Source of the DNA: Marinobacterium iners DSM 11526
Lineage (GTDB): Bacteria > Pseudomonadota > Gammaproteobacteria > Pseudomonadales > Balneatricaceae
Direction of reading: 5' to 3'
DNA length: 64,000 nucleotides
Assembly (NCBI RefSeq): GCF_900107855.1
Contig: NZ_FNRJ01000007.1
Location: forward strand, 62,001-126,000
Part shown: positions 36,454-49,600 of the stretch, piece after piece
How positions within the stretch are numbered: the first letter of the stretch is position 1
Layout: every line of letters starts with the position of its first letter
Translations under genes and position numbers: made by a program
Notes under the pieces: model-generated
What the model was told of the DNA's origin: nothing
Databases searched by the model: none
The model's input: only the letters and a program-made list of their open reading frames with translations

Positions 36454-36483
36454 GGCTGGTGGCGAAACGCCACCGGCCTTTTT
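36454..36483 (+). terminator. Attenuator between rplL and rpoB
   Basis: GGTGGCG (36458-36464) pairs with CGCCACC (36468-36474) over AAA, extended by GGC/GCC around a bulge, and is followed by five T residues. In E. coli a partial terminator at this junction lowers rpoBC expression relative to rplJL; this hairpin can do the same. Confidence 0.75.
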
Positions 36484-40754: not shown

Positions 40755-43700
40755 ATGAAAGATTTGCTGAATCTGCTGAAGTCCCAGGGGCAGTCCGAAG
40801 AGTTCGACTCCATTCGTGTGTCCCTGGCATCACCGGATATGATCCGTTCCTGGTCTTACGGTGAAGTCAAAAAGCCGGAAACCATCAACTACCGTACCTT
40901 CAAGCCGGAACGTGATGGTCTGTTCTGTGCCAAGATTTTTGGTCCGGTCAAGGACTACGAGTGCCTGTGCGGCAAGTACAAGCGCATGAAGCACCGTGGT
41001 GTCATCTGCGAGAAGTGTGGTGTCGAAGTCACTCAAACCAAGGTGCGTCGTGAGCGCATGGCTCATATTGAGCTTGCATCACCCGTTGCACATATCTGGT
41101 TCCTGAAGTCACTGCCGTCTCGTATCGGCCTGATGCTTGACATGACCCTGCGTGATATCGAGCGTGTACTCTACTTCGAATCTTTCGTAGTGATCGATCC
41201 GGGTATGACCACGCTTGAGCGCGGTCAGATGATGAACGACGAGCAGTACTTTGAAGCACTGGAAGAGTTCGGTGACGACTTCGATGCCCGTATGGGTGCG
41301 GAAGCGATTAAAGAACTGCTGGCTTCAATCGACCTGGAAGAAGAGTGCCAACAGCTGCGTGAAGAACTGCCGCAGACCAACTCTGAAACCAAGATCAAGA
41401 AGCTGTCCAAGCGTCTCAAACTGATGGAAGCCTTCCTGAAGTCGGGCAATGATCCCGGCTGGATGATCATGGAAGTGCTGCCGGTATTGCCGCCGGATCT
41501 GCGTCCGCTGGTACCACTGGATGGTGGTCGTTTCGCGACCTCCGACCTGAACGATCTATACCGTCGTGTGATCAACCGTAACAATCGTCTGAAGCGCCTG
41601 CTCGACCTGAACGCGCCGGATATCATCGTGCGCAACGAGAAGCGCATGCTGCAGGAATCCGTTGACGCATTGCTGGACAACGGTCGTCGCGGTCGTGCCA
41701 TTACCGGTTCCAACAAACGTCCGCTGAAATCCCTGGCCGATATGATCAAGGGCAAGCAGGGTCGTTTCCGTCAGAACCTGCTCGGCAAGCGTGTTGACTA
41801 CTCCGGTCGTTCCGTAATCGTGGTAGGTCCGTATCTGCGTCTGCATCAGTGCGGTCTGCCGAAGAAAATGGCACTGGAGCTGTTTAAGCCATTCATCTTC
41901 TCCAAGCTGGAGCTGCGTGGCCATGCGACCACCATCAAAGCGGCCAAGAAGATGGTTGAGCGCGAAGAACCGCTGGTATGGGATATCCTCGACGAGGTCA
42001 TCCGTGAGCATCCGGTCCTGCTGAACCGTGCGCCGACTCTGCACCGTCTGGGTATTCAGGCGTTCGAACCGGTTCTGATCGAAGGCAAGGCGATTCAGCT
42101 GCACCCGCTGGTGTGTGCGGCATACAACGCTGACTTCGACGGTGACCAGATGGCGGTGCACGTACCGCTGACCATCGAGGCTCAGCTTGAAGCCCGCGCT
42201 CTGATGATGTCCACCAACAACATCCTGTCACCGGCAAACGGCGAGCCGATCATTGTACCGTCTCAGGACGTGGTACTGGGCCTGTACTACATGACCCGTG
42301 AGCGTATCAACGCCAAGGGTGAAGGCATGATCTTCTCCGACATCAAAGAAGTGCAGCGCGCTCACGGTGCCGGTCAGGTTCATCTTCAGGCACGTATCAA
42401 GGTACGTATTCCTGAAGTGATCCGTGACATTGAAGGTAATGTGGAAGAGCGTCATGAGCTGCAGGATACGACTGTAGGTCGTGCCATGCTGTTCGATATC
42501 GTGCCTGATGGCCTTCCGTTCGAACTGGTCGACCAGGCGATGAAGAAGAAGTCGATCTCACGCCTGTTGAACGAAGCCTATCGCCGTTGTGGTCTTAAGG
42601 ACACGGTAATCTTCGCTGACCAGTTGATGTACATGGGCTTCCGTCAGGCGACCATGTCTGGCGCCTCCATCGGTGTGAACGACTTTGAAATCCCGGCCGA
42701 GAAGGTCGAGATCATTGCCGAGGCCGATAAAGAAGTTAAAGAGATCGAGCGTCAGTTCGCTGATGGTCTCGTAACTCAGGGCGAAAAATACAACAAGGTT
42801 ATCGACATCTGGTCTCGTGCCAACGAACTGCTGGCCAAGAAGATGATGGATAACCTGAAAGTCGACGTTGTCACCGATGCCGAAGGCAACAAGGTCGAGC
42901 AGGAGTCCTTCAACTCCGTTTACATGATGGCCGACTCTGGTGCTCGAGGCAGTGCCGCACAGATTCGTCAGCTGTCCGGTATGCGTGGCTTGATGGCCAA
43001 GCCGGATGGTTCCATCATCGAAACACCGATCGTGGCTAACTTCCGTGAAGGTCTGAACGTACTTCAGTACTTCATCTCAACCCACGGTGCGCGTAAGGGT
43101 CTTGCGGATACCGCTCTGAAAACCGCAAACTCTGGTTATCTGACTCGACGTCTGGTTGACGTGGCACAGGATGTTGTAATCACCGAGCCGGACTGTGGTA
43201 CCGACAAGGGTGTACTGGTACAGCCGATGATCGAGGGTGGCGATGTGATCGTGACTCTGGGTGAGCGTGTACTGGGGCGTGTCGTGGCTCAGGATGTGCT
43301 TGACCCGAGCGGCAAGGAAACGCTGATCGAAGCCGGTACGCTGATTGACGAAACCTGGGTTTATCGTCTGGAAAATGACGAGAAATACAGCGGCATTGAC
43401 GAGATTCTGGTGCGCTCCGCGATCACCTGTGAAGCTCAGGTCGGCATCTGTTCCAACTGCTATGGCCGTGACTTGGGTCGTGGACATCTGGTCAACCGTG
43501 GCGAAGCGGTCGGTGTTATTGCCGCCCAGTCGATCGGTGAGCCGGGTACACAGCTGACCATGCGTACCTTCCACATCGGTGGTGCTGCATCGCGAGCTGC
43601 TGCTGTGGATAACATTCAGGTCAAGAACGGTGGTGAAATCCGCCTGCACAACTTGAAATACGTTGAGCGTACTGACGGCAACCTGGTGGCGACCTCCCGT

Positions 43701-44984
43701 TCCGGTGAAGTCGGTGTAACCGATGAGCATGGTCGTGAGCGTGAGCGTTACAAGCTGCCGTATGGTGCCATTATCAAGGTACGTGACGGATCCAAGGTTG
43801 ATGCCGGTGCTGTTGTTGCCAACTGGGACCCGCACACCCATCCGATCGTGACCGAAGTGGCGGGCCGCATCCAGTACGTGGGTATGGAAGATGGTATCAC
43901 CATCAAACGTCAGACCGACGAACTGACAGGCCTCTCAACCATTGAGATCCTGGATGGCAAGGATCGTCCGCAGGCTGGCAAAGACATTCGTCCGATGGTC
44001 AAACTGGTAGACGAGCAGGGCAACGACGTGTTCCACCCGGGCACTGAAATGCCGGCCCAGTACCTGTTGCCGGCCAAGGCGATCGTAAACCTGAACGACG
44101 GTGCTGATGTTCAGATCGGTGACATTCTTGCGCGTATTCCGCAGGAAGGTTCGGTCAACAAGGACATCACCGGTGGTCTGCCGCGTGTTGCCGACCTGTT
44201 TGAGGCGCGTAAGCCGAAAGAGTCTGCCGTACTGGCAGAGGTTTCAGGTACCGTAACCTTCGGCAAGGAAACCAAGGGCAAGCGTCGCATCGTGATCACC
44301 CCGCTGGATGGTTCTGATCCGGTTGAGATCATGATCCAGAAGTGGCGTAACCTGAACGTGTTTGAGGGTGAAACGGTTGAGAAGGGTGAGGTCATCTCTG
44401 ATGGTCCGTCCAACGCTCATGACATCCTGCGAATCCTGGGTGTAGCCGAACTGGCCAAGTACATTGTCAGCGAGATCCAGGAGGTTTATCGCCTCCAGGG
44501 TGTGGCAATCAACGACAAGCACATTGAAGTAATTGTGCGTCAGATGCTGCGCAAGGCCGAGATTAATGAAACCGGCGATTCCGACTTCATCCCGGGTGAC
44601 CAGGTTGAGTATGCCGCGATCATTGATCAGAACAAGCGCCTTGATGCTGAAGGCAAAATTCCGGCCAAGTACGAGCGCGTACTGCTGGGTATTACCAAAG
44701 CCTCTCTGGCAACAGAGTCGTTCATCTCCGCGGCCTCCTTCCAGGAGACAACCCGCGTATTGACCGAAGGTGCGGTAACCGGCAAGCGTGACTTCCTGCG
44801 CGGCCTGAAAGAAAACGTGGTGGTAGGTCGACTGATCCCGGCGGGTACGGGTCTGGCATACCACAGCGAGCGTAAGCGTAAACGTCAGATGGCAACAGAA
44901 GGTATGACCGTGAGTGCAGAAGATGTGCAGCAGGCACTGACCGAAGCACTCAATGCATCCATGTCTTCGCCGGACGCTGAGTAA
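40755..44984 (+). CDS. rpoC: DNA-directed RNA polymerase subunit beta'
   Basis: 1409 residues with the catalytic magnesium motif [14 protein letters not shown], the N-terminal zinc-binding cysteines ([19 protein letters not shown]), the second zinc site ([19 protein letters not shown]), and bridge and trigger elements ([18 protein letters not shown]). The ATG at 40755 has GAGGAG upstream. A strong terminator follows at 45008. Confidence 0.99.
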
Positions 44985-44998
44985 ATATTGCTCAATAA

Positions 44999-45028
44999 TT
45001 GACGTCAGGGGCCGGAATTGATTAAAAT
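44999..45028 (+). promoter_or_regulatory. Candidate str-operon promoter inside the rpoC terminator
   Basis: TTGACG (44999-45004), an 18-base spacer and TAAAAT (45023-45028) lie within the terminator palindrome. The two hexamers are identical to those of the S10 promoter at 49529-49557, which supports them, although the 18-base spacing is slightly long. Confidence 0.5.
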
Positions 45029-45039
45029 TCCGGCCCCTT
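45008..45039 (+). terminator. Terminator of the rpoBC transcription unit
   Basis: GGGGCCGGAATT (45008-45019) and AATTCCGGCCCC (45026-45037) form a perfect 12-bp stem with a six-base loop. Only TT follows, so the strength comes from the stem. Confidence 0.78.
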
Positions 45040-45100
45040 CGTGCTGGACTCAAAGTTCAGCTCATAAAGATGGTAAAAAACCAAACGTGGAGTTTGCTTA

Positions 45101-45475
45101 ATGGCAACGATTAACCAGTTGGTACGCCAGCCACGTAAGCGCAAGGTGCAGCAGAGCGACGTTCGCGCGCTCGAAGCATGTCCGCAGCGTCGTGGCGTGT
45201 GTACCCGTGTTTACACTACTACACCGAAGAAGCCGAACTCGGCTCTGCGTAAAGTATGTCGTGTGCGTCTGACCAACGGCTTTGAAGTGTCTTCCTACAT
45301 CGGTGGTGAAGGTCACAACCTGCAGGAACACTCAGTTGTTCTGATCCGTGGTGGTCGTGTAAAAGACCTCCCGGGTGTTCGTTACCACACTGTACGCGGT
45401 TCTCTGGACTGCTCTGGTGTTAACGATCGCAAACAGGGTCGTTCCAAGTACGGTACCAAGCGTCCCAAGTCCTGA
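45101..45475 (+). CDS. rpsL: 30S ribosomal protein S12
   Basis: 124 residues, a decoding-centre protein. [13 protein letters not shown] and [15 protein letters not shown] contain the lysines whose change gives streptomycin resistance; both are the wild-type residues. It is the first gene of the str operon. The upstream gap holds the rpoC terminator and a nested promoter candidate. Confidence 0.98.
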
Positions 45476-46118: not shown

Positions 46119-48212
46119 GTGGCTCGAACTACCCCACTTGCACGATATCGTAACATCGGTATCTGTGCGCACGTTGATGCCGGCAAGACTACCACCACTG
46201 AGCGTGTTCTGTTTTACACAGGCCGTAGCCACAAGATGGGTGAAACCCATGACGGTGCATCCACTACCGACTGGATGGAGCAGGAGCAGGAGCGCGGTAT
46301 CACCATTACTTCTGCAGCCGTTACCTGTTTCTGGAGCGGCATGCAGAAACAGTTTGAAGAGCATCGCGTTAATATCATCGATACTCCGGGGCACGTTGAC
46401 TTCACAATTGAAGTTGAGCGTTCGCTGCGTGTACTGGATGGTGCCGTGGTTGTACTGTGTGCCTCCTCAGGCGTACAGCCGCAGACCGAGACTGTATGGC
46501 GTCAGGCCAACAAGTATGAAGTCCCCCGCATGGTGTTCGTCAACAAGATGGACCGCGCCGGTGCAGACTTCTACATGGTCGAATCTCAGTTGAAAAAGCG
46601 TCTTGGCGCGACCCCTGTTCCAATCAATCTGCCGATTGGTGCGGAAGATGAATTCAAGGGTGTTGTCGACTTGCTGCGCGGCAAAGCGATCCTATGGAAC
46701 GAAGAAGATATGGGTATGACCTTCGAAGAAGGTGATATTCCAGCTGACATGCAGGATACCGTCGATCAGTACTACGAGCAGATGGTCGAGGCTGCTGCTG
46801 AAGGCTCTGAAGAGTTGATGGACAAGTATCTCAACGAAGGTGAGCTCACCGTTGAAGAGATCAAGGCAGGCCTGCGTGCACGTACTTTGAACAATGAGAT
46901 CATCCTGATGCAGGCTGGTTCGGCGTTCAAAAACAAGGGTGTACAGGCTGTACTGGATGCCGTCATTGAATACCTGCCGTCACCGACAGAAGTTAAGGCG
47001 ATCGAAGGTACTCTCGACGACAAGGCTGAGACCGTTGAAACACGTGAAGCGGATGATGATGCCCCGTTTGCGGCGTTGGCATTCAAGATCGCAACTGACC
47101 CGTTTGTTGGTACGCTGACGTTCGTACGTGTTTACTCCGGTGTGCTGAATTCTGGTGACAGTGTGTACAACTCTGTCAAACAGAAGAAAGAACGTATCGG
47201 TCGTATGGTGCAGATGCATGCCAACAGCCGTGAAGAGATCAAGGAAGTACGCGCTGGTGACATCGCGGCGATGATCGGTCTGAAGGATGTAACCACGGGT
47301 GACACTTTGTGCGACCTGGACAAGAAGATTGTTCTGGAACGCATGGAATTCCCTGAGCCGGTTATCTCCGTTGCAGTAGAACCGAAGTCGAAGGCTGACC
47401 AGGAGAAAATGGGCATCGCACTGAGCAAGTTGGCTCAGGAAGACCCGTCTTTCCGCGTCGAAACCGATGAAGAAACAGGTCAGACCATTATCTCCGGTAT
47501 GGGTGAGCTTCACCTTGATATCATCGTTGACCGCATGCGTCGCGAATTCAAGGTTGAGGCTAATATCGGTAAACCGCAGGTTGCCTACCGCGAAAAAATC
47601 CGTAAGCCTGTTGTGGCAAACCACAAGTTTGCTCGCCAGTCTGGTGGTCGCGGTCAGTACGGTCACGTTGTTGTAGAGTTCAGCCCGAGTGATGAAGAAG
47701 GACTGGAATTCGTCAACGAGATCGTGGGTGGTGCGATTCCGAAGGAATACATCCCGGCGGTACAGAAAGGTATCGAAGAGCAGATGAAGAACGGTGTTAT
47801 CGCCGGTTATCCGCTCATCGGTTTGAAGGCACGTCTGTACGACGGTTCCTTCCACGAAGTTGACTCCAACGAAATGGCGTTTAAAATCGCCGCATCACAG
47901 GCACTTAAGAAGTATGCACAGGAAGCCAGTCCGTGTCTGCTCGAGCCGATGATGAAAGTTGAAGTCGTAACCCCTGAAGAGTACATGGGCGATGTGATGG
48001 GTGACCTGAACCGTCGTCGTGGTCTGGTGCAGGGTATGGAAGACAGCACATCCGGCAAGGTGATCAACGCTGAAGTACCGCTGGGTGAAATGTTCGGTTA
48101 CGCTACTGACCTGCGCTCTGCGTCTCAGGGTCGTGCGACCTATTCTATGGAGTTCAAGGGTTATTCCGAAGCTCCGCAGAATATTGCCGAAGCCGTTATT
48201 AAGCAGAACTGA
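46119..48212 (+). CDS. fusA: Elongation factor G
   Basis: 697 residues, the translocation GTPase. G1 is AHVDAGKT (residues 17-24), G3 DTPGHVDF, G4 NKMDR; domain IV has [13 protein letters not shown] near residue 505. The start is GTG 46119 with AGAGGA upstream. Third gene of the str operon. Confidence 0.99.
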
Positions 48213-49462: not shown

Positions 49463-49489
49463 AAAAAGCCCTCCTCGGAGGGCTTTTTT
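49463..49489 (+). terminator. Terminator of the str operon
   Basis: GCCCTCC (49468-49474) pairs with GGAGGGC (49477-49483), flanked by A5 before and T6 after. This is a textbook intrinsic terminator that would also work in reverse. Confidence 0.9.
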
Positions 49490-49528
49490 GTAGCTGTTAC
49501 CATGGTTGGTCAAAAAGTAAACTTTCGG

Positions 49529-49557
49529 TTGACGATGGTGGCTCCACTGGGTAAAAT
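49529..49557 (+). promoter_or_regulatory. S10 operon promoter
   Basis: TTGACG (49529-49534), a 17-base spacer and TAAAAT (49552-49557) predict a start near 49564. The leader to rpsJ is then about 64 bases with one small CCCCT/AGGGG hairpin, far shorter than the L4-controlled E. coli leader. Confidence 0.78.
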
Positions 49558-49600
49558 TTGCGTCCCCTTTATCCGAGGGGAGGTCGGCTATTGCCGTTAA

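Follow-up and report, generated by a model that had tools for sequence, protein, structure and literature searches.

How can one short gap end the transcript of one operon and start that of the next? In the window (the whole 64,000-nucleotide stretch analysed here), rpoC is followed by the str operon in the order rpsL-rpsG-fusA, with tuf next by our reading of the open reading frame list, and the 116 bp from the rpoC stop to the rpsL start at 45101 contain both promoter hexamers and an inverted repeat. A preliminary description had proposed that a promoter is nested inside the rpoC terminator palindrome. Our analysis leads us to favour, with somewhat better than even confidence, a reading in which the palindrome would form a 3′-end hairpin in rpoBC RNA and overlies the putative promoter of the str operon (rpsL-rpsG-fusA-tuf) that follows. 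The features on which this reading is built, all on the forward strand, are as follows.

40755..44984, + strand: rpoC, the upstream gene, called as an open reading frame and by NCBIfam TIGR02386 above its cut-off; stop codon at 44982-44984.
44999..45004, + strand: −35 hexamer TTGACG of the putative rpsL (str operon) promoter, assigned from sequence and lying outside the stem.
45005..45022, + strand: 18-nt spacer, taken up from 45007 on by the 5′ arm plus one half of the loop.
45007..45019, + strand: 5′ arm of hairpin 1, identified by inverted repeat, fold and covariation, upstream of the predicted start.
45023..45028, + strand: −10 hexamer TAAAAT, bases 1-3 in the loop and bases 4-6 in the 3′ arm.
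45026..45038, + strand: 3′ arm of hairpin 1, covering the last three −10 bases, a GC-rich discriminator and the predicted start zone, identified by inverted repeat and fold.
45043..45061, + strand: hairpin 2, within the leader of rpsL, with an 8-bp stem and a 3-nt loop, identified by folding.
45087..45092, + strand: probable ribosome-binding site GTGGAG, from reading of the sequence.
45101..45475, + strand: rpsL (30S protein S12), called as an open reading frame and by NCBIfam.

The palindrome is present as first described, though its stem is 13 bp long (45007-45019 with 45026-45038) rather than 12, with fully (100%) complementary arms and a loop of 6 nt. Its RNA fold of −25.9 kcal/mol (z −5.2) was equalled by none of 200 shuffles, and the 13 bp form a stable, GC-rich stem-loop of the kind that belongs to an intrinsic terminator. 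The hexamers had been placed in and across this stem, which is half right: three bases of the −10 do lie in the 3′ arm, but TTGACG ends 2 nt before the stem begins. The word "nested" thus describes the spacer, the −10 and the discriminator, but not the promoter as a whole.

The stated identity with the S10 promoter was borne out, as both hexamers recur at 49529, where the spacer is 17 nt. The rpsL promoter, TTGACG-18-TAAAAT, matches 10 of 12 sigma-70 hexamer positions with a spacer inside the 16-18 nt range, and we infer that it is used, with a start site at about 45034-45040 placed from spacing. The hexamers alone are little proof, because a promoter scan over 16 kb returned 6 sites vs 8.8 in shuffles, that is, no excess. 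Within the gap, a TTGAC/TAnnnT pair arises in 0.8% of mononucleotide shuffles and a perfect stem of at least 10 bp in 0.1%, and among the 17 promoter-like sites in the window (at least 9/12, both strands), the rpsL promoter has a dyad score of 13 and the runner-up 6. As far as sequence can supply it, proof comes from conservation at the rpoC-rpsL position rather than from the hexamers. The site at 47860-47887, TTGACT-16-TAAAAT within the 3′ part of fusA and ~360 bp upstream of tuf, may be an internal tuf promoter and has no palindrome over it.

Conservation was examined in the rpsL upstream regions of 146 loci from 94 genera and 44 families of one order, which we take to be the Pseudomonadales of GTDB; rpoC lies directly upstream in 125 of them, and the 21 loci in which rpsL stands away from rpoC (L028, L030, L032, L200, L213, L214, L270 and others) served as natural controls. 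A further 109 loci (sets of 80 and 28, plus one from E. coli) include additional members of the order, among them Pseudomonas and Marinobacter. Matching genomes were sampled in part: one set represents 30 loci of 158 matching genomes, and a second, drawn from 138 matching genomes, comprises new loci and 71 hand-chosen stretches, from which same-genus copies and truncated contigs were excluded. Three loci, L134, L211 and L215, duplicated L034, L031 and L033, respectively, and were removed. Two adjacent loci without a promoter call (L253, L264) reduced the adjacent genera from 80 to 78 and the adjacent loci from 125 to 123, and two others (L190, L192) reduced the S10 loci from 30 to 28. Each genus is represented by the first of its loci in the list. 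Across the 78 adjacent genera, rpsL promoter spacers are 17 nt in 59 and 18 nt in 19, and TTGAC is present in 77, although the scan itself required 4 of those 5 letters.

We asked of each promoter whether its spacer pairs better than chance by shuffling the spacer 1000 times with hexamers and discriminator held fixed and refolding the segment, a pass being p ≤ 0.05. With one locus per genus, 43 of the 78 rpoC-adjacent genera of the order passed (34 at p ≤ 0.01), and with one locus per family 20 of 38 did so. In the window's own family, the pass rate rose to 13 of 15 genera and to 31 of the 33 rpsL loci behind rpoC. Among rpsL promoters away from rpoC, only 2 of 15 genera (L039, L249) and 4 of 21 loci passed (Fisher 0.0027 for adjacent vs non-adjacent genera), and the own-family genus with rpsL in such a position (L030, L032) failed with p values of 1.0 and 0.11. 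S10 promoters, all from the window's family, passed in 1 of 28 cases (Fisher 4e-7 vs adjacent genera); the single pass is L178, one of two S10 calls (with L191) that lie far from the gene and are probably wrong. Among named loci, nesting was found in 8 of 9 Pseudomonas, in 1 of 2 Marinobacter and in Amphritea (L054), whose gap is nearly identical to those of two members of the window's family (L020, L023) and which therefore probably belongs to that family, while the single Chromohalobacter failed. Nesting over the −10 is absent from 35 of the 78 adjacent genera.

A second test, a dyad score counting Watson-Crick pairs only with a cut-off of at least 6, gave a similar division: 42 of 78 adjacent genera reached it, compared with 0 of 15 non-adjacent genera and 2 of 28 S10 promoters, where shuffled spacers led us to expect 8.4%, 5.4% and 4.8%, respectively. 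Since nesting tracks rpoC adjacency, hairpin 1 would serve RNA arriving from rpoC. These results also bear on the possibility that the hairpin is a functionless by-product, a C-rich discriminator pairing by chance with a G-rich spacer. Discriminators are indeed strongly C-rich in all four promoter sets compared (nested, non-nested, non-adjacent and S10). Shuffled spacers, however, do not reproduce the nesting, which is rare at S10 promoters with similar discriminators and absent from most non-adjacent rpsL promoters, and both the own-family spacer shuffles and the covariation described below speak against chance pairing. We find this explanation hardly credible.

A perfect dyad over a −10 might instead be a site for a dyad-symmetric binding protein that controls the str promoter, that is, a DNA operator. 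A repressor site is commonly found over the −10. In an alignment of 26 own-family segments, six pairs show double-sided change, amounting to 17 cells, and none of 500 shuffles gave as many, although these shuffles do not keep relatedness and the use of genus representatives removes kinship only partly. Pairing is preserved in 90% of cells, vs 32-65% in slid registers, which hold only 0-3 double-changed cells. The outermost two of the 13 pairs are not conserved, being unpaired in 12 and 11 of the 26 segments. The stems of 42 genera, chosen by Watson-Crick score and so blind to G-U (a selection by RNA folding would have favoured it), contain 361 Watson-Crick pairs and 30 others, of which 23 are G-U, 0 are A-C and 7 are of other kinds, where permuting the arms predicted a G-U share of 0.59. 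An A-C mismatch is what G-U looks like from the opposite strand, so the preference for G-U marks RNA transcribed in the direction of rpoC. Compensatory changes, together with G-U pairs and no A-C mismatches on the + strand, are what an RNA element should display.

The register of the hairpin is also informative. The dyad centre shifts among genera by −2 to +2.5 nt with respect to the start of the −10, meaning that the hairpin is kept and its register is not, which fits an RNA hairpin, unlike a fixed operator. Arm letters differ between families, and dyad scores stay below 6 in all 15 non-adjacent genera, which also tells against an operator of this promoter. We therefore rejected the operator, on the G-U vs A-C counts and the sliding register, and consider it very improbable; the pattern points to selection on RNA read from rpoC rather than on a DNA site. 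The proposal that the end of rpoBC and the start of the str operon share about 40 bases is accordingly upheld in one respect, as the double use of these bases as RNA hairpin and promoter is conserved with covariation, but termination itself is left unsupported by a poor U-tract.

The weakness of that U-tract is the main difficulty in calling hairpin 1 a terminator, a name that its stable stem would justify. Downstream of base 45037 the sequence reads TTCGTGCT, whose first T is itself the outermost stem base of hairpin 1, and this falls short of the T run of an intrinsic terminator. A simple terminator scan did not list hairpin 1, though this is weak evidence, as the clear-cut terminator of tuf escapes it too. 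In 14 of the 42 nested genera, the stem is followed by a T-rich 8-nt stretch, with 5 or more T, that begins no more than 3 nt away. Counted at a set distance beyond the −10, T residues per 8 nt average 3.29 in nested and 2.89 in non-nested promoters, vs 3.60 in non-adjacent and 3.39 in S10 promoters, so nested promoters are not clearly richer in T after the stem than the controls. On these counts, a canonical terminator in every lineage was rejected as a generality. The position of the hairpin just past the stop codon and the T-rich stretch in a third of genera nonetheless make a 3′-end element the simplest reading, and the role of hairpin 1 as a 3′-end element of the rpoBC mRNA is moderately supported, with 3′-end formation as the presumed outcome.

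As control promoters are equally T-rich at the start, the promoter would supply the 3′ arm and the Ts, and only the 5′ arm would be new. A str-type promoter, in which the start region is rich in T and the discriminator before it rich in C, could thus provide a 3′ arm and U-tract, the latter part of a terminator, ready made. The spacer, little constrained by promoter function, may have evolved complementarity to the discriminator in many lineages where rpoC lies directly upstream. RNA reaching the promoter from rpoC would contain both arms and fold, while promoter-born RNA would lack the 5′ arm and stay unfolded, leaving str transcripts unharmed. Hairpin 1 would then mark or make the 3′ end of the rpoBC mRNA, by intrinsic termination where a U-tract follows and, where none does, by blocking 3′ exonucleases once transcription has ended at a later point (at hairpin 2 or through Rho, for instance).

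Nesting would suit a gap with too little room for a second element, and the distances are in keeping with this: the median interval from rpoC stop to −35 is 36 nt in nested genera vs 46 nt in non-nested ones. Upstream hairpins separate from the promoter, with a fold of −12 kcal/mol or stronger, are found at 31 of 46 non-nested loci vs 29 of 77 nested loci, though counted per genus the difference (22 of 35 vs 20 of 43) is not significant (Fisher 0.18). Against the favoured reading, 15 of the 123 adjacent loci have neither −10 nesting nor such an upstream hairpin, and 7 of these 15 have a hairpin over the −35. By folding, this alternative register, which places the −35 in the loop, occurs in 11 of 35 non-nested, 2 of 43 nested and 1 of 15 non-adjacent genera of the order, at further adjacent loci in 9 of 25 (28-locus set) and 5 of 39 (80-locus set), and among controls at 0 of 23 other non-adjacent loci and 2 of 28 S10 promoters. 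Watson-Crick dyads of at least 7 in this register number 6 in 78 order genera (null 3.8%) and 14 in 64 further adjacent loci (5.0%), compared with 1 in 15 (null 5.3%) and 3 in 23 (null 7.6%) at non-adjacent controls and 1 in 28 at S10 promoters. The −35 register is thus a lead, strong by folding and weaker by Watson-Crick dyads. In other gammaproteobacterial orders, nine loci (L140, L144, L146, L150, L152, L153, L160, L161, L162) have rpoC-rpsL hairpins that span the −35, with the 3′ arm in the spacer; a U-tract is unlikely in such hairpins because the −10 follows the 3′ arm.

The preliminary description had gone further and suggested that polymerase recycling couples the two operons, such that an RNA polymerase ending rpoBC would be released on the str promoter and reinitiate there, coupling synthesis of RNA polymerase to that of the translation apparatus. 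The geometry fits, as the stem ends in the predicted start region, and in the passages cited from PMC6978380 and PMC6978322, RNA polymerase after intrinsic termination in vitro mostly stays on the DNA, slides and can reinitiate nearby, including on a downstream promoter (PMC6978380). The restarts described in the cited part of PMC6978322 are, however, usually in the reverse direction. No feature of the sequence requires a hand-off, the U-tract is weak, a polymerase crossing the promoter ahead of termination should also occlude it, and the 35 of 78 genera without nesting indicate that exact overlap is inessential. Moreover, because nested genera have less room upstream, economy of space suffices to account for the overlap and coupling is unneeded as an explanation. 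We regard such recycling as improbable, and a wider version, in which a hand-off in one register or another would couple RNA polymerase subunits in cis with S12, S7, EF-G and EF-Tu across many gammaproteobacteria, as quite improbable.

Another alternative is that hairpins 1 and 2 are both parts of a regulated rpsL leader RNA, with hairpin 1 as an antiterminator or ligand-binding part of an attenuator. The Rfam model RF01773 (rpsL_pseudo), which presumably originates from Naville and Gautheret 2010, takes in both hairpins and matches 5 of 14 loci searched (L034, L055, L061, L063, L064: four Pseudomonas and one relative). At these Pseudomonas loci, the model shares the rpoC-rpsL position, its helix two is the promoter hairpin and its helix three is hairpin 2. 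Hairpin 2 is followed by at least 4 T in 8 nt at 23 of 33 own-family loci (hand count), and E. coli (L288) has a similar hairpin. In the window itself, the gap has no RF01773 match at the Rfam threshold, nor does L002 up to an E value of 0.1, and TCATAAAG after hairpin 2 is poor in T, with no T run. In 4 of 6 other members of the window's genus, at least three Ts directly follow hairpin 2.

Counted by one criterion (at most −7 kcal/mol with at least 4 T of 8), hairpin 2 occurs in 46 of 78 adjacent genera, in 3 of 15 non-adjacent genera of the order and at 13 of 23 non-adjacent loci beyond the order sample; with counts this mixed, a strict tie to rpsL regardless of the upstream gene was rejected. 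Hairpin 1, for its part, holds the −35 to −10 interval, so that it cannot be in RNA made from the rpsL promoter, and it follows rpoC adjacency. For these reasons, we consider an attenuator role for hairpin 1 unlikely. A strong terminator-like hairpin with TTTTT also lies at 36454-36478, between rplL and rpoB, in what is presumably the position of the known rpoB attenuator of E. coli.

The favoured reading of hairpin 1, as a 3′-end element of the rpoBC mRNA, also alters how RF01773 may be read. Its consensus has CuuGAC and CUUUaGAcu at the −35 and −10 places, and its second helix runs from spacer to discriminator; since the model spans both promoter elements, its first two helices are probably absent from promoter-born rpsL mRNA, and the 5′ part of this "leader" is probably promoter, not leader RNA. 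Naville and Gautheret differ in presenting the element as leader RNA and attenuator, and their rpsL section (section 8 of PMC2965389), which treats rpsL leaders as attenuators, is silent on rpoC and on any promoter in the element.

The rpoC-rpsL junction would represent a conserved case, at a textbook locus, of a single DNA stretch under two selections, as a promoter and as the RNA hairpin of a neighbouring operon. It suggests an easy evolutionary route, as the promoter would already be half a terminator and a complementary spacer the sole addition, and it may offer a natural test bed for the reuse of overlapping promoters by terminator-released polymerase. Open-licence literature on overlapping terminators and promoters or on the rpoC-rpsL junction yielded no description of the nested arrangement and, among the papers listed, no start-site or 3′-end data for this junction. 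The promoter-nested hairpin thus appears to be a variant form for which we found no earlier description, with overlap at the RNA level that is well supported by the comparative sequence evidence.

Three known arrangements help to place it. The ordinary terminator-then-promoter order is found in the window at the tuf-rpsJ junction, where a terminator likewise parts two co-directional operons; there, however, the terminator (about 49463-49489, with a T run) and the S10 promoter (49529 on) stand apart. In this junction (49463-49580), the S10 transcript opens with a C-rich segment able to pair with GAGGGG further along, mirroring what is seen at rpsL, but shuffling yields folds just as good (z 0.6). 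In the read-through protection of pIN in IS10/Tn10, a hairpin hides the transposase ribosome-binding site. As proposed here, read-through RNA with both arms folds and RNA from the inner promoter, lacking one arm, escapes, but hairpin 1 sits ahead of a core operon's leader, and its target would be the 3′ ends of RNAs. At the E. coli frd-ampC junction, the ampC attenuator doubles as the frd terminator, so that there, too, one hairpin is shared between the end of an operon and the region where its neighbour begins. That hairpin lies downstream of the ampC start and is contained in ampC transcripts, whereas the 5′ arm of hairpin 1 lies upstream of the predicted str start, and the closer parallel to the frd-ampC hairpin is hairpin 2.
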